A stretch of DNA of 64,000 nt, taken from contig NZ_FLQX01000127.1 of NCBI RefSeq assembly GCF_900089955.1, positions 1-64,000 on the forward strand. Reading direction: 5' to 3'. Position numbers and translations under genes: made by a program. Positions 1,105 to 8,496 of this stretch are shown piece after piece. Within the stretch, counting starts at the first letter, position 1, and every line of letters begins with the position of its first letter. The notes beneath the pieces were generated by a model, which saw only the letters and a program-made list of their open reading frames with translations, did no database searches and was not told the origin of the DNA. This DNA comes from Candidatus Accumulibacter aalborgensis. GTDB lineage: Bacteria; Pseudomonadota; Gammaproteobacteria; Burkholderiales; Rhodocyclaceae.

Positions 1105-1140
1105 TTCTAACATTCCAGCAATCTCTGTTATACTCCACAG

Positions 1141-2028
1141 ATGGCTAGACCATTGAGGCTGGAATTTCCGGGCGCCGTTTATCACGTTACCTCGCGCGGT
1201 GATCGTCGGGAAGATGTTTTCCTGAGCGACGATGATCGCAGTGATTGGCTGGAGGTGCTGGGCCTGGTTTGCGCGCGGTTCAACTGGGTGGTGCATGCCT
1301 TTTGTCAGATGACCAATCACTATCATCTGCTGGTCGAGACGGTGGATGGCAATCTCTCCGGTGGGATGCGGCAATTGAACGGCCTTTATACGCAGCGTTT
1401 CAACCGCCGCCATAGCCTGGTTGGCCATCTCTTTCAGGGGCGCTACAAGGCGATCCTCGTACAAAAGGAAGCCTACTTACTGGAGTTGACTCGCTATGTC
1501 GTGCTCAACCCACTGCGCGCCAAGCTGGTGGAATCGCTTGAGGACTGGCGCTGGAGCAGTTACCCTTTCACTACCGGCCAGGAGGCACCGCCGTCGTGGC
1601 TGGATACGGATGGGCTGCTTGGTCAGTTTGCTGCAAACCGCGGCGAAGCGCTTGAGCGCTATGGGCAGTTCGTGATGGCGGGCGAGGGCTTGCCTAGTCC
1701 AATGTTGGCCACTCGTCATCAACTGTTGCTGGGTGACCAGGCGTTCGAGGGGCGCCACCGGCAGACAAGAAACGCAGAGGATCTGCGCGAAGTTTCCAGG
1801 GCGCACCGACGATCGATCGCTTTATCGCTGGATGAGTACCGGGCGCGTCACGCCGATCGGGATCAGGCGATGGCTGAGGCTTACCTATGCGGTGCTTATA
1901 CGATGGCCGAGATCGGGCGCCATTTCGCGGTCCACTACATGACCGTAAGTCGCGCGGTGCGGAAGTTTGAACAAGACCGAAAGAAAATGATCGTCGCAGT
2001 GATCGTCAAACAGGCGCCAGCGGAATGA
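1141..2028 (+). CDS. REP-associated tyrosine transposase (RAYT, Y1_Tnp/IS200-like)
   Basis: Single-strand DNA transposase/nuclease of 295 residues. The HUH motif is HYH at residues 60-62, and the catalytic tyrosine is likely Y119 in the TRYVVLNPLRA block; GHLFQGRYKA near residue 95 is another RAYT hallmark. The C-terminal part (about 230-285) reads as a helix-turn-helix (EIGRHF...MTVSRAVRKFE). RAYTs process REP sequences and are usually host-domesticated single copies. The last 15 or so residues do not look like the family's usual short end. The stop codon overlaps the start of jetB by ATGA, so the transposase reads as the first gene of the Wadjet operon, where jetA should be. Confidence 0.9.
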   Translation: MARPLRLEFPGAVYHVTSRGDRREDVFLSDDDRSDWLEVLGLVCARFNWVVHAFCQMTNHYHLLVETVDGNLSGGMRQLNGLYTQRFNRRHSLVGHLFQGRYKAILVQKEAYLLELTRYVVLNPLRAKLVESLEDWRWSSYPFTTGQEAPPSWLDTDGLLGQFAANRGEALERYGQFVMAGEGLPSPMLATRHQLLLGDQAFEGRHRQTRNAEDLREVSRAHRRSIALSLDEYRARHADRDQAMAEAYLCGAYTMAEIGRHFAVHYMTVSRAVRKFEQDRKKMIVAVIVKQAPAE

Positions 2029-2666
2029 TGCAGGAAGATGTCGAGGCCTCTGTGGCGGTGGCGGCCAGCCCCGACCTGTCGGCCTTGGTGATTCCCCTGC
2101 TCAAGGGGGTGATCTATCAGGAATCCGATGCCGGTCTGTGGAATTCCCTGCTCGCTCTCCAGAGCCGGGTGCGCGACTATGTCGCGGTGCTCGACCTCGA
2201 ACTGGTGCTTGACGAAGCCGAAGGCTATGCTTTCCTGCGCGCACGCCCCGAAGCGCCGGACGGCGCGGTGGCCAGGCTGCCGCGTCTCGTTGCCCGGCGT
2301 CCGCTGTCGTTTCCGGTCAGTCTGTTGCTCGCGCTGCTGCGCAAGAAACTGGCCGAATTCGATGCCGGCGGCGGCGACACGCGCCTGGTCCTGTCGCGCG
2401 ACGAGGTTGCCGAACTGATGCGGGTTTTCCTGCGCGAAGGCAGCAACGAGGCGAAGCTCATCGACCAGATCGACTTCTATATCGGCAAGGTCGTCGAGCT
2501 GGGTTTCCTGCGCCGCCTGAAGGTTGAGCATGGTCAGCCGGCGATGGTCGAGGTGCGACGCATTCTCAAGTCCTTTGTCGACGCGCAGTGGCTGGCCGAA
2601 TTCGATCAGCGGCTGGCGGCGTATCGCGCGCTGCTGCCCGGCCAGCAGGGGGCGGCGGATGAGTGA
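2025..2666 (+). CDS. jetB: Wadjet system KITE subunit JetB (DUF4194)
   Basis: Protein of 213 residues matching the DUF4194/JetB family, the MukE-like KITE subunit of Wadjet. The family pattern includes an N-terminal helical region, a middle block [19 protein letters not shown], then a winged-helix part ending LGFLRRL and a stretch on an arginine-rich helix. JetB helps assemble the JetABC SMC motor, which extrudes plasmid DNA before JetD cuts it. The start codon overlaps the RAYT stop (ATGA) and has no good Shine-Dalgarno, so translation probably depends on coupling to the upstream gene. The 3' end overlaps jetC by 8 bp. The usual upstream partner jetA (DUF3375, kleisin) is absent. Confidence 0.85.
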
Positions 2667-5600
2667 AACGCAGAGTCTCGGCCTCGACTTCGTCGCCGAT
2701 GACGCGCTCTCGGGTTTCCGTTTGCAGCGTCTCGAAGTCTTCAACTGGGGAACTTTCGATGGCCGCGTGTGGATGCTCAATCCGGACGGCAAGAACTCGC
2801 TGTTGACTGGCGACATCGGCTCGGGCAAGTCGACGCTGGTCGATGCGGTGACGACCTTGCTGGTGCCGGCGCAGCGCATCGCCTACAACAAGGCCGCTGG
2901 CGCCGACAGCCGCGAGCGTACCTTGCGCTCGTACGTGCTCGGTCATTACAAGTCGGAGCGCAACGAAGTCAGCGGCACGGCCAGGCCGGTGGCTCTGCGC
3001 GACCACAACAACTACTCGGTGATCCTCGGCGTCTTTCATAACGCCGGCTACGACCAGACGGTGACGCTGGCGCAGGTTTTCTGGATCAAGGATGCGCAGG
3101 GGCAGCCGGCGCGCTTCTTCGTCGCCACTGAACGCGACCTGTCGATTGCCGTCGATTTTGCCCACTTCGGCGCCGACATCGGCGCGCTACGTAAACGGCT
3201 ACGGCGCCCTGGGACCGAGGTCTTCGACAGCTTTCCGCCCTACGGCGCCTGGTTCCGCCGGCGCTTCGGCATCGACAACGAGCAGGCGCTCGACCTCTTC
3301 CACCAGACGGTGTCGATGAAATCGGTCGGTAACCTGACTGACTTCGTGCGCAGCCACATGCTCGAACCTTTCGATGTGGCGCCGCGCATCGCCGCCTTGA
3401 TCGGCCACTTCGACGACCTCAACCGGGCGCACGAGGCGGTGCTGAAGGCCAAGCGGCAGGTGGCGCTGCTCTCGCCGCTGGTCGCCGATGGCGAGCGGCA
3501 CGCGTCGCTGGTGGCCCAGGTCGAGGAACTGCGCGCCTGCCGCGAGGCGCTCAAACCCTACTTTGCCGGCCTGAAGCTGGCCTTGCTCGACAAGCGCATC
3601 GCCGGACTGGCCGACGAGTGGCGACGGCAGGACACGCAGCTCAAACGCTACGAAGAGCGCCGCGACGGGCAGCGCGGCGAAGAGGCGGAACTCAAGCGCA
3701 ATATTGCCGACAACGGCGGCGATCGTCTCGACCGCCTGGCGAGTGAAATCCGGCGCAAGGATCAGGAGCGCCAGGCGCGGGCACGCAGGGCGCAGCGCCA
3801 CGCCGATCTGGTGCAGGCCGTCGGCGAGCGACCGGCTGCGGACGAGTCCGCTTTCCTCGACCAGCGGCAGCGTCTGGCGGCGCTGGCCGAAACGGCGCGC
3901 GAGCGCGACGCGAGCCTGCAGAACGACCTCACCGAGTTGGGCGTCAGCCTGCGTCAGGGCAAGCAGGAGCACGACGAGCTGGCCGCCGAGATCACCAGCC
4001 TGAAAGCGAGACGCAGCAATATTCCGGCCGACCAGGTCATGATGCGCGTGGCGCTGTGCCAGGCACTCGCCCTGTCGGAAGGCGAGATGCCTTTTGCCGG
4101 CGAGCTGCTGCAGGTGCGTGCCGACGAGCGCGACTGGGAGGGCGCCGCCGAGCGGCTGTTGCGCAACTTCGGCCTGTCGCTGCTGGTGCCGGATGCCGAT
4201 TACGCGCAAGTGGCGGACTGGGTGGACAAGACCCAGCTCAAGGGACGTCTGGTCTATTTCCGCGTGCGCCACAGTGCGCGCAGCGAAATGGCCAGTCTGC
4301 ACCGCGACTCGCTGGTCAGGAAGCTGGCCGTCAAGCCCGATTCGCCGTATTACGACTGGCTGGAACGTGAGCTTGCGCACCGTTTCGACGTCGCCTGCTG
4401 CGCGACGCAAGAGCAGTTTCGGCGCGAGCTGCGGGCGATCACGCGCGCCGGCCAGATCAAGGCCCCCGGCGAGCGGCACGAGAAAGACGACCGCCATCGG
4501 ATCGACGACCGCAGTCGCTATGTGCTCGGCTGGACCAACGCCGCCAAGATCGACGCGCTCGAAACCAAGGCCAGGACGCTAGCGACGCAGCTCGGCGAGT
4601 TGGGGAGCCGCATCGGCAGGATCCTGGCCGAACAGAGGACGCTCAAGGAGCGTCTGACCGCGCTCTCGAAACTCGACGAGTACGGCGACTATCAGGAACT
4701 CGACTGGCAGTCGCTGGCCAGCGAGGTGGCCAAGCTCGAAGACGAGAAGCGACTTCTCGAATCGGCGTCCGACCTGTTGCAGAGCCTGACGGCGCGCCTC
4801 ACCCGCTTGCAGGCCGAACTCGCGCAGAGCGAAGCGGCGCTGGCCGAGAAGACGCGCGAACTGGGCGCCACTCAGGCCAGACGTGAGGCTGCCGAGGGAT
4901 TGCGGCAGCAGACGCTGGTGCTGATCAGTGACCCGGCGCTGCATGCCGCGCACTTTGAGCGCCTCGACGCGGTGCGCAGCGAAGCGCTCGGCGAGCACCA
5001 GCTCACCGTCGAATCGTGCGACAACCGCGAGCGCGAAATGCGCGACTGGTTGCAGGGCCGGATGGATGCCTACGGCGTTAGCCTCAGGAAGCTGCGCGAC
5101 AAGCTCATCGACGCGATGCGCGCCTATTGCCTCGCTTTTCCGCTCGACACGCAGGAAGTCGATGTCGCCATCGAAGCGGTCGACGAGTACCGGTCGATGC
5201 TCACCAGGCTGCAGTCCGACGACCTGCCGCGCTTCGAGTTGCGTTTCAAGGAATTGCTCAACGAGAACACCATCCGCGAGGTGGCGAACTTCAACGCGCA
5301 ACTGGCGATGTGGCGCGAGACGATCAAGGAACGGATCACGCGCATCAACGCTTCGCTGACCCAGATCGACTACAACCCCGGCCGCTACATCGCGCTCGAA
5401 GCACAGCCGACGCCGGACGCCGACATCCGTGATTTCCAGGGCGAGCTGCGCGCCTGCACCGAAGGGACGCTGACCGGATCGGAAGACGCGCAGTACTCGG
5501 AAGCCAAGTTCCTGCAGGTGCGGCAGATCATCGAGCGCCTGCGCGGCCGCGAAGGGCTGTCCGAGCAGGACCGCCGCTGGGCAGCCAAGGTCACCGACGT

Positions 5601-6027
5601 GCGCTACTGGTTCGTCTTTGCCGCCAGCGAACGCTGGCGCGAAGACGACAGCGAGCACGAGCATTACTCGGACTCGGGAGGCAAGTCGGGCGGGCAGAAG
5701 GAAAAGCTGGCCTACACCATCCTGGCGGCCAGCCTCGCGTATCAGTTCGGTCTCGAGTGGGGCGCCGTACGTTCGCGCTCGTTCCGTTTCGTCGTCATCG
5801 ACGAGGCCTTCGGGCGCGGCTCCGACGAGTCGGCGCAATACGGCTTGCGCCTTTTCGCGCAGCTCAATCTGCAACTGCTGATCGTCACGCCGCTGCAGAA
5901 GATCCACATCATCGAGCCCTTCGTGGCCAGCGTCGGCTTCGTGCACAACGAGGAGGGTCGTACCTCGAGGCTGCGCAACCTGTCGATCGACGAGTACCAC
6001 GCCGAAAAAGCGAAGGCCGCGGGATGA
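2659..6027 (+). CDS. jetC: Wadjet system SMC-like ATPase JetC
   Basis: MukB/SbcC-like SMC ATPase of 1122 residues. Walker [10 protein letters not shown] lies at residues 51-59, the ABC signature [10 protein letters not shown] starts near 1010, and Walker B FVVIDE is at about 1044-1049. Long charged helical segments between the two ATPase halves fit the SMC coiled coils. JetC is the loop-extruding motor of the Wadjet anti-plasmid system. The start chosen is the ATG at 2659, where the family-conserved N-terminus begins; the reading frame stays open upstream, but that part is a jetB shadow. It overlaps jetB by 8 bp and jetD by 4 bp, giving a translationally coupled jetB-jetC-jetD unit. All ATPase motifs look intact. 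Confidence 0.93.
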
Positions 6028-7223
6028 ACTGGACCAGGCCCGCTGGCCTGCGTTCCCAGTTACAGAAGCTGTGGGAGCGTGGCGACGTGCTCGCCAGTCT
6101 GGTGACCGGCGAGGCGCTTTTTCCCAGGCGTCTGATACTCAAAGTCCCGACCTCGGCCGAGATGGCCGAACGCTTCGACGAGGTGCGCGGCTGGGTCGGC
6201 GAGCTGCGCGCGATGGCGCACTGCCGGGTCGAAATGCGCGACTTCAGTCATCGGCTGTTCGGCGCCAATGCGGTTCCGAACGAGGCCTGGGTCGATACTT
6301 TGGACGACGCGCTGGCGCTGATCGGCAAGCGGCGAGAGGTCAACCGTTTCATGTCCTTGGTAGACGGCACGCGTCAGCGGCAACCGTCACTGCTCGACTG
6401 GCTGGCCAGACGGCCACTGCGGGCGCTTGAACTGTCCGCAGAATGGAGCCGCCTGCTCGACATCGTCGCCTGGCTGCAGGCCCATCCTCGTCCCGGCGTC
6501 TACCTGCGGCAGGTGGACATCGCCGGCGTGCACAGCAAGTTCATCGAAGGCCAGCGCGGTGTTCTCAGCGAGCTGCTCGATCTCTCCCTGCCGGCCGCGG
6601 CGATCGATCCGTCGGCGTCGGGAGTGAGCCAGTTCGCTCGGCGCTACGGTTTTCGCGACAAACCGACGCGCATCCGATTCCGAATTCTGGATCGCCGGCT
6701 CGCGCTGCTCCCCGGCGACCGTGAACAGGATGTCACCCTCGATGCCGACAGTTTTGCCCACCTCAACCTGCGCGTGTCGCGGGTTTTCGTCACCGAGAAC
6801 GAGGTCAATTTCCTCGCTTTCCCGGCAGTGAGCGACAGCTTGATCATCTTCGGCGCCGGTTACGGCTTCGAGACGCTGGCGCAGGCCGAGTGGCTGTCGC
6901 GCTGCGATATCCACTACTGGGGCGACCTCGACACTCATGGCTTCGCGATTCTCGATCAGTTGCGCGCGCACTTCGACCATGTCCAGTCGTTCCTGATGGA
7001 TCGCGCGACCTTGCTGACTTTTGAAGCGCTGTGGGGAGAGGAGTTGCAGCAGACACTGCGCGACCTGCCGCGACTGAACGAAGGCGAGCGAGCGGTCTAT
7101 GACGAACTGCGTGACAACCGCCTGCGCAGGAATGTGCGTCTTGAACAGGAAAGGATCGCTTTCGGCCGGGTCGAGTCGGCGATTGCGGCGCTGCTCGATT
7201 CGCGCGCTCGCCCGAGTCGGTGA
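6024..7223 (+). CDS. jetD: Wadjet system nuclease JetD (DUF3322-DUF2220)
   Basis: Protein of 399 residues with the two-part JetD architecture. The N-terminal arm (about 1-200) fits DUF3322, and the C-terminal toprim-like domain fits DUF2220. The catalytic toprim pattern is visible: glutamates in ENE at 258-260 followed by FLAFP, and the metal-binding pair D301/D303 in [10 protein letters not shown]. JetD is the topoisomerase VI-like subunit that cleaves plasmid DNA after JetABC extrusion. The ATG overlaps the jetC stop by 4 bp. Catalytic residues are intact, so the nuclease gene has not decayed even though jetA is missing from the window. Confidence 0.9.
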
Positions 7224-7361: not shown

Positions 7362-7829
7362 TCAGCGTCTGGCCAGCAAGCCGCCCAGCATGCCCATCAG
7401 CTCGCCAGCGTTACCGAGGCCCTCCTGCGGGACCTGACCGGAAGGCGTGAGCTGGTCAATCAGGCCCGGAAGAACCTGCGACAACTGGCCAGCCGCTTCA
7501 CCGGAGTTCGTTCCCAGTTTGGCAGCCAGATCCGCCATCACGTCCGACCCCAGCACGTCGGTGAGCTGGTTGCCGGAAATGGGCTGGTTTTGACCCGAAC
7601 CTATCCAGGAAGCCACTACCTCCCCGAGACCGGCCTGCTGGAATTTGGCCATCAGGCCGCCCAGTCCACCCTGGGAGCCATTATTGGCGAGCAAGCCGGT
7701 GAGCACCTGCAGCAGTTGCGGGTTGCTGAACAGTGTCCCCAGCAGGCCGGACAGACCACCGCCCTGACCAGCCTGCAAAGGCTGTTGGCCGCCGAGGACC
7801 GAGCCCAGTACCGAATCGAGTAAGCCCAT
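7362..7829 (-). CDS. DUF937 (YidB-like) protein
   Basis: Protein of 155 residues resembling YidB/DUF937. It opens with MGLLDSVLGSVLG, is rich in glycine, leucine and glutamine, and has the family block WIGSGQNQPISGNQLTDVLG near residues 85-105, followed by a repeat-like helical C-terminus. The biochemical role of the family is not established. The start was set at the internal ATG at 7829, because the family begins there and a GGAGA ribosome site precedes it; the longer open frame upstream has non-family residues. Convergent with jetD. Confidence 0.85.
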   Translation of the reverse strand: MGLLDSVLGSVLGGQQPLQAGQGGGLSGLLGTLFSNPQLLQVLTGLLANNGSQGGLGGLMAKFQQAGLGEVVASWIGSGQNQPISGNQLTDVLGSDVMADLAAKLGTNSGEAAGQLSQVLPGLIDQLTPSGQVPQEGLGNAGELMGMLGGLLARR

Positions 7830-7993
7830 GGTGCATGTCTCCTTCAAGTCAAGAAAAATCGTTCCGTCGCGCCTTGTGGCGAGATCCAGTGTGCCGCGCC
7901 GTCCATCATGGTGGCAATGCGCATTCTGGGCAATGGGCGATGAGTGATCAAGCAACTTCAACGGAGGGAAGCGCATACGTCTGGGGGTGCGCG

Positions 7994-8248
7994 TCAGTAA
8001 TGGAAGCGCAACTGAGCGATCATCAGCGCATCGTTCTCGACGCGGTATACGATGCGATGCTCATCGGTTATCCGGCGTGACCAGAATCCTGAAAGCGCAT
8101 GCTTCAACGGTTCGGGTTTGCCTACTCCTGTGAATGGCTCGCGCTGTGTCTCACGTATCAGCTTGTTGATTCTGTCGACCATGCGCTTGTCTTGCTTCTG
8201 CCAATACAGGTAGTCTTCCCACGCCTCGTCAGCGAAAATCAGCTTCAC
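7994..8248 (-). CDS. yoeB: YoeB-type mRNA interferase toxin
   Basis: Toxin of 84 residues, the usual YoeB length. It is a RelE-fold ribosome-dependent endoribonuclease that cuts mRNA at the A site. Family features are visible: the WEDYLYWQKQDK start, the GVGKPEPLKH block, SRRITDEHRIVYRV and the C-terminal RFHY, with the catalytic E, R and terminal H/Y region present. It overlaps the antitoxin gene by 4 bp (ATGA) and is downstream of it, the standard YefM-YoeB order. Nothing in the sequence suggests inactivation. Confidence 0.95.
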   Translation of the reverse strand: MKLIFADEAWEDYLYWQKQDKRMVDRINKLIRETQREPFTGVGKPEPLKHALSGFWSRRITDEHRIVYRVENDALMIAQLRFHY

Positions 8249-8496
8249 TCGACGAGCTTCCGCTCAACGCCCTGGCCAGCGTTCAGTTGTGCGGCGGCCG
8301 CCAGAAGGCGCCTGGCGTTGGCGGGGGTGCGCAAGAGGTAGGCGGTTTCCTCGAGTGCCTTGAAGTCTTCGAGCGAGAGCATCACGACAGACTGTTCTCC
8401 GTTTCGCGTAATGATCAAAGCTTCGTGGTCGTTGCAAACGCGGTCCATGGCGCTGGCGAGGTTTGCACGAACGGAGGTGTAGGTAATTGCATCCAT
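8245..8496 (-). CDS. yefM: YefM-type antitoxin (Phd/YefM family)
   Basis: Antitoxin of 83 residues. The N-terminal DNA-binding half contains the family pattern TYTSVRANLASAMDRVCNDHEALIITRNG and VVMLSLEDFKALEETAYLL. The C-terminal third, which would wrap YoeB, is more variable. It represses its own operon, with YoeB as corepressor. The operator upstream (8513-8530) carries two TGTAC-type boxes spaced as in Escherichia coli. The ATG overlaps nothing upstream; the stop overlaps yoeB by 4 bp. Confidence 0.95.
   Translation of the reverse strand: MDAITYTSVRANLASAMDRVCNDHEALIITRNGEQSVVMLSLEDFKALEETAYLLRTPANARRLLAAAAQLNAGQGVERKLVE

Follow-up and report, generated by a model that had tools for sequence, protein, structure and literature searches.

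Wadjet is a four-gene bacterial anti-plasmid system, normally encoded in one tight operon. In the portions of the literature available to us, it is presented as four genes with no split mentioned (PMC7251935), and some Bacillota strains are described as being without at least one jet ortholog (PMC12287153). We describe here a Wadjet locus in the genus Candidatus Accumulibacter, found in a window consisting of the first 64 kb of contig C127 from the genome of a wastewater bacterium, where jetB, jetC and jetD follow a gene resembling a RAYT (REP-associated tyrosine transposase) and jetA lies on a different contig. From the gene content, the phylogenies and the patterns of constraint we think it likely that the operon of a Wadjet type I system has been broken up here and that its parts would assemble in trans.

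The locus and its distant jetA

The draft assembly containing the window (G000) comprises 4,707,069 bases in 181 contigs, with a completeness of 100 and contamination of 0.2. We use G-numbers for genomes of Candidatus Accumulibacter, 28 of which were examined, and L-numbers for extracted loci. The genes and sites at issue in G000 are as follows.

1107..1134, plus strand: promoter-like site CTAACA-16-TATACT just 5' of the RAYT start (consensus scan, 9/12 matches)
1141..2028, plus strand: RAYT-like Y1 (IS200-type) transposase gene, 295 amino acids, heading the cluster (Pfam Y1_Tnp 45.2 bits, cut-off 23)
2025..2666, plus strand: jetB (KITE subunit), 213 amino acids (Pfam DUF4194 152.6 bits; PADLOC JetB1 6.6e-92)
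2659..6027, plus strand: jetC (SMC ATPase), 1122 amino acids (PADLOC JetC1 E 0, 1686 bits; Pfam AAA_29 and SbcC_Walker_B; VVIDEAF motif kept)
6024..7223, plus strand: jetD (Toprim nuclease), 399 amino acids, open frame (Pfam DUF3322 and JetD_C; PADLOC JetD1 8.7e-153)
C79 20028-21485: jetA, 485 amino acids, open (DUF3375; PADLOC JetA1)

The first-pass annotation drew the four window genes in this order, all on the plus strand and overlapping, and its map holds, as do the open jet frames and the four bases, ATGA, that the RAYT stop and jetB start share. It was also right that jetA is missing beside jetBCD with the RAYT-like gene in its place. The set is complete in G000, with JetB (DUF4194), JetC (SMC) and JetD (Toprim) all present in open frames, and because the best PADLOC models for these and the distant jetA are JetB1, JetC1, JetD1 and JetA1 we read it as a predicted Wadjet type I; it is not one operon, as jetA is on another contig and RAYT-jetBCD is in the window.

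A DUF3375 search of the whole genome, as the annotation had proposed, returned a single gene, the intact jetA on C79, outside the window. The proposal that jetA had been lost or replaced is thus not sustained, since a complete jetA of this operon type is present elsewhere in single copy, with a tree that agrees with that of jetBC and ratios of non-synonymous to synonymous substitution rates (dN/dS) of 0.072-0.119 in G000 pairs. The other jet genes are also single, with one DUF4194 match over cut-off and one DUF3322 match; a second DUF4194 match, at 21.9 bits, is below cut-off. On C79, jetA follows type III methyltransferase (mod) and restriction (res) genes, with res and jetA overlapping as ATGA, and the first two genes 3' of jetA, which we take to encode an antiporter and an ABC binding protein, lie on the opposite strand. 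The contig extends approximately 4.5 kb past jetA, so the break there is not a contig end; on C127, RAYT begins 1.1 kb from the contig start. With the single intact jetA on a separate contig, a working system in G000 would have to come together in trans. Of the two outcomes previously offered, a JetA supplied in trans stands, the C79 gene being the only jetA found in the genome, and an inactive system is rated less likely; for G000 we infer trans assembly, activity and promoter use from the DNA sequence.

jetA and jetBC are probable partners

Matches to jetA and to jetB are each present in 17 of the 28 genomes. For the phylogenies, one of jetA and one of jetB plus jetC, we used 15 of the 18 over-threshold jetB loci (G022, G023 and the C56 locus of G027 were left out, and G003 and G009 contribute only 34% of columns to the jetBC tree). 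Both recover the groups (G000, G011) and (G006, G010, G025) with starred support, and the rpoB tree agrees, placing G000 with G011 and G023 (88/95) and, weakly, G025, G010 and G006 together (81/89). It departs from the jet trees over G004 and G027, which it nests within the latter group; in both jet trees they fall outside a clade of 11 genomes that holds G000, and on these trees, the Wadjet of G004 and G027 has another history.

The jetA gene is an open, full-length frame in 15/15 genomes examined. In 11 pairwise comparisons dN/dS is 0.05-0.15 for jetA, 0.13-0.24 for jetB and 0.05-0.21 for jetC; for jetD it is 0.15-0.24 at full length, and 0.28-0.30 in two pairs that include an 86-codon G010 remnant. 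The value for jetA between G000 and G011 is 0.072. Pairs in which jetA is split off in both genomes are no exception, with jetA at 0.075-0.119: among G006, G010 and G025, all jetA-split, the values are 0.075, 0.106 and 0.119 for jetA, 0.145-0.180 for jetB and 0.101-0.114 for jetC. All five genomes checked keep three motifs in jetC and, in jetD, the stretch TEN(E)VNFLAFP. Because the trees agree and both parts are under purifying selection, the distant jetA and the jetBC genes of the window are probably partners.

Interruption of the jetA-jetB seam

The 18 jetB loci over cut-off in the genus divide into eight with jetA adjacent, five with jetA on the same contig beyond an insert, and five with jetA on another contig, the last including G007, where contig ends cut the locus on both sides. 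The clade of 11 that holds G000 is supported at 100/100 in both jet trees, and only one of its members (G021) has a clean seam between jetA and jetB. In the others the seam holds a gene (SIR2 or Uma2) or a short insert, or jetA is on another contig. The seam genes are these.

L058 8354-11890 and L057 2281-5757, minus strand: SIR2-domain gene, 1158-1178 amino acids, between jetA and jetB in G012 and G003
L055 9576-10328: Uma2-family gene between jetA and jetB in G011

Approximately 4.4 kb occupies the seam in G003, G009 and G012, and an insert of approximately 470 bp that of G026. The SIR2 gene in G009 was assigned by position and 5' sequence, and the SIR2_2 and Dsr1-like domain matches come from the G012 copy. 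The SIR2-domain, Dsr1-like gene of G012 and G003 is a second defence gene nested inside a Wadjet operon. About 60 bp of the G011 Uma2 seam sequence is also present 3' of the orphaned jetA in G025 (L063 7809-7870).

Outside the genus, we surveyed the best 80 of at least 323 confirmed jetB relatives in GTDB genomes, 72 of which are not from Accumulibacter. Among these best 80, jetA lies within 250 bp upstream of jetB at 67 of the 72 outside loci (67/71 evaluable), one Methylomonas locus (L195) being at a contig edge and the four non-adjacent exceptions (L189, L193, L194, L199) all belonging to Methylomonas; jetC and jetD are adjacent at all 66 outside loci that hold both, and five run off the contig. 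At one locus, L239, jetA and jetB are present with no jetC or jetD within the next 10 kb. Interruption is not unique to Candidatus Accumulibacter, since the Methylomonas loci and L239 are interrupted too. In L199 (7292-10004) and L194 approximately 2.7 kb separates jetA from jetB, and in strain LW13 this includes an N-acetylmuramidase gene; in L239 (8731-18731) a DNA methyltransferase-like gene and others follow jetB, so that here the break is at the jetB-jetC seam.

Scattered genes and relics

The most dispersed sets are in G006, with jetA on C106, jetBC on C96 and jetD on C34, and in G010, with jetA on C19, jetBC on C65 and jetD on C71; each genome retains one open copy of each jet gene across its three loci. 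In G010, jetBC is flanked by jetA fragments before jetB (C65 8884-8968 and 9111-9284) and by a jetD remnant after jetC, and on C71 a jetC 3' remnant precedes jetD, with further jetC and jetD pieces after it. In G006, jetD has the 3'-terminal 66 bp of jetC ahead of it. Simple cut-and-paste fails to account for G010 and G006, since two loci carry copies of the same piece, and the sequences point to duplication of the operon followed by reciprocal, complementary loss. The final jetC codons in G006 form a small frame (L248 9194-9268) with a Shine-Dalgarno-like AGGAGG and a stop that overlaps the jetD start.

Relics occur elsewhere in the genus. G019 carries an operon on C80 and, at C105 33476-33889, a fusion of a jetA 5' piece to a jetD 3' piece, which is apparently a collapsed second operon; G027 has a jetA piece, G025 has jetD pieces beyond jetD, and G008, G005 and G015 have jetC or jetD pieces and are all without a jetA, jetB or jetD match.

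The comparison with related strains that the first-pass annotation had suggested identified adjacent jetABCD in G018 and G019, preceded in G018 by full-length matches to mod and res and in G019 by parts of both. The chromosome upstream of jetA is common to G000, G006, G010, G011, G025 and G026. Because of this shared sequence and the G018 and G019 layout, we propose that jetA kept its old place and that jetBCD moved or lost its first copy. In G018 the type III restriction-modification pair lies directly before Wadjet, so that L069 4200-16055 is a single mod-res-jetABCD cluster, and in G000 two genes that we take to be a toxin-antitoxin-like pair apparently lie between mod and res (L002 10551-11335). 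A search of relatives with the G000 flanks found the gene at 7362-7976 in G011 and G023, where the left flank is not beside it. Least distances from contig coordinates are approximately 5.6 kb for G000 (jetA to RAYT), 15 kb for G010 and 20 kb for G006 (jetA to jetBC), and 35 kb for G025 (jetA to RAYT).

The RAYT-like gene as a probable leader

We call the gene RAYT-like because its product scores 72.4 bits with NCBIfam REP_Tyr_transpos, under the curated cut-off of 80; it is matched in 24 of the 28 genomes. Upstream of it are GGGGTCAG stretches, and the consensus scan of 900-2200 yielded one promoter-like site against a shuffle mean of 0.3. We compared 19 RAYT-family upstream regions, consisting of three jet-linked or stub cases and 16 that passed filters among 27 loci tried. 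In 13 of the 19 (a count with no shuffle control), including both jet-linked RAYTs and a stub in G010, a TANNNT box is found 12 or 13 nucleotides 5' of the start; in G000 it is part of the promoter-like site.

G025 shares the RAYT-jetB junction of G000, and its jetA likewise lies on a different contig. A frameshift and a stop make its RAYT a pseudogene while jetB, jetC and jetD stay open, so the RAYT protein is dispensable there. The jetC remnant and intact jetD of G010 are preceded by a RAYT 5' stub that has the same box. There are six orphaned segments, jetBCD in G000 and G025, jetBC in G006 and G010, and jetD in G006 and G010, and RAYT 5' sequence with the promoter-like box precedes three of them; the other three gave no match to the RAYT regions of G010 and G006. 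Its presence before half of these segments suggests that RAYT probably supplies a promoter and translational coupling, acting as a leader for jetBCD.

RAYT identity between G000 and G025 is 90-93% in four windows spanning 1261-2060, and 70-91% in jet-gene windows from 2061 onward; synonymous divergence (dS) is 0.234 for RAYT (178 codons) versus 0.52-0.63 for jetA, jetB, jetC and jetD. G011, G010 and G006 have no RAYT before jetB. A single ancestral junction for G000 and G025 is disfavoured by both observations, and because of them a later exchange of the RAYT segment, or two insertions, would fit better.

The nearest RAYTs without jet neighbours end in AVRxYELQQRxTx, and the last 15 or so residues of the G000 protein differ, bearing out the earlier remark that this end is unusual. 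The further suggestion that the junction holds a piece of jetA finds no support: in 26 comparisons, with 300 shuffles each, that set two RAYT tails against nine stretches from jetA ends or seams and four tails from RAYTs of relatives, 25 gave shuffle p values of at least 0.05 (one at 0.05), the exception (p 0.007) being the G000 tail with a stretch inside the 3' part of G006 jetA. The most suggestive in-frame match to jetA is 10 nucleotides, AAACAGGCGC, encoding KQA in both frames, and shuffles cannot tell it from chance. Taken together, the 26 comparisons do not match the tail to jetA beyond chance, and a jetA fragment as its source is not supported.

Two features flank the unit. A PEP-CTERM-like gene, below NCBIfam cut-offs, lies 5' of RAYT (326-971) and is followed by a terminator-like hairpin (944-971) that could insulate RAYT-jetBCD; on the minus strand at 7994-8496 are two short overlapping open reading frames, presumably a YoeB/YefM-type toxin-antitoxin pair.

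A probably dispersed operon and its alternatives

In the reading that we favour, jetA would not have moved from its old position downstream of the type III mod-res pair, and jetB-jetC-jetD would have become a unit headed by the RAYT-like gene, a captured leader whose promoter and ATGA overlap would replace the lost upstream operon. JetA made from the C79 locus would then join JetBC and JetD in the cell, and the break-up in G000 would also have proceeded by duplication and reciprocal loss. The scattering of the set over up to three places suggests a machine built from separately encoded parts. More tentatively, and with somewhat more doubt than belief, we extend this to the genus: duplication and reciprocal loss of the operon would have spread an obligate SMC defence complex across two or three loci, with each orphan kept through a new 5' leader (from a RAYT gene in three of six) and JetA dosage uncoupled from that of JetBC and, in G000, perhaps co-regulated with the type III restriction system.

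Several observations weigh against this account. There is no jetA or jetBCD relic at the G000 break, with only a marginal 56-bp jetD match on C94 (E 9.3e-4), and for lack of a clear relic the duplication and loss route is one that we infer for G000. No empty site was found when the jetBCD flanks of G000 were compared with relatives, the region being too rearranged to show one. Every split case is a draft assembly, and G025 has 7% contamination and two rpoB matches. The RAYT-like protein falls short of the NCBIfam cut-off, and two of the three RAYT-headed segments, in G000 and G025, share one junction and are therefore not independent cases. Constraint on jetD is the weakest of the four (dN/dS 0.206 for G000-G011 and 0.241 for G000-G025), and if C127 directly followed C79 the gap between jetA and RAYT would be only about 5.6 kb.

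This last arrangement underlies the alternative that fares best, though we regard it as unlikely: that C127 follows C79, so that other genes and a distance of some 5.6 kb or more separate jetA from RAYT-jetBCD, by insertion and not translocation. The two parts would then be co-oriented, given jetA at 4.5 kb from the C79 end and RAYT at 1.1 kb from the C127 start, and the 4.4 kb in the seam of G003, G009 and G012 provides a parallel. However, on C79 jetA is followed by two genes of opposite orientation, the antiporter is 65 kb away from jetA in G026, and contig coordinates force larger gaps in G006, G010 and G025 (at least approximately 20, 15 and 35 kb). The 300-base ends of C79 and C127 share no 15-mer, which is weak evidence, and an attempt to link these contigs through the antiporter region of relatives established no link.

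It is somewhat less probable still that the system is dead or dying, the complex having ceased to form after the separation of jetA and the genes now slowly decaying. The fragments scattered in several genomes, the complete lack of jetA, jetB and jetD matches in G008, G005 and G015, the jetD dN/dS and the 11 of 28 genomes without a jetA match (some of them incomplete) are what decay would leave, but all four frames are open in G000, the jetC and jetD motifs are kept, jetA, jetB and jetC have dN/dS values far under 1 even in comparisons of split genomes, and G006 and G010 each keep one open copy per gene at three loci. An artefact of assembly or binning, with chimaeric contigs or a jetA contig from another organism, is very improbable: all split genomes are drafts or bins, but both breaks in G000 lie inside contigs, RAYT and jetA each occur once there in an assembly with little contamination, the split recurs in several assemblies, and jetA groups with the expected species in its tree. 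That the RAYT protein is a new working part replacing JetA, as its translational coupling to jetB might hint, is scarcely credible, since jetA exists under constraint, the same RAYT is a pseudogene in G025, and we know of no kleisin role for a Y1 transposase.

Comparison with known systems

The system itself is known, and what is new in the split Wadjets is the gene arrangement, the three-contig relatives being the most striking. No title or abstract opening in the literature that we searched describes a Wadjet in which jetA or jetD is encoded apart from the other genes, which does not by itself show its absence in print, and the search found no paper combining Wadjet and Accumulibacter. Because defence-system finders rely on gene neighbourhood, a split Wadjet would score as incomplete. 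Such loci provide natural test cases for the question of whether SMC complexes depend on being co-translated, at matched dosage, from one operon; their relics, leader peptide and captured promoters are apparent intermediate steps in the break-up of an operon under selection on its parts.

Like Wadjet type I (JetABCD, MksBEFG), G000 has all four subunits once, with best hits in type I models, but jetA is separated from jetBCD, and three contigs carry jetA, jetBC and jetD in each of G006 and G010. The window protein resembles RAYTs in its Y1_Tnp (HUH) domain, which is over the Pfam cut-off, and differs in its sub-threshold NCBIfam score and in an altered C-terminus overlapping jetB as ATGA. With MksBEF-type SMC systems without a nuclease, as the accessible text of PMC10586767 presents them, the set shares an SMC-kleisin-KITE core, whereas jetD is retained here, beside jetC or on a third contig (G006, G010). 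The layout also resembles that of split biosynthetic operons such as trp (PMC2395257), pathways that are kept although their genes sit at separate loci; here, in contrast, it is a defence SMC complex that is divided, and it has been interrupted repeatedly at the same seam.

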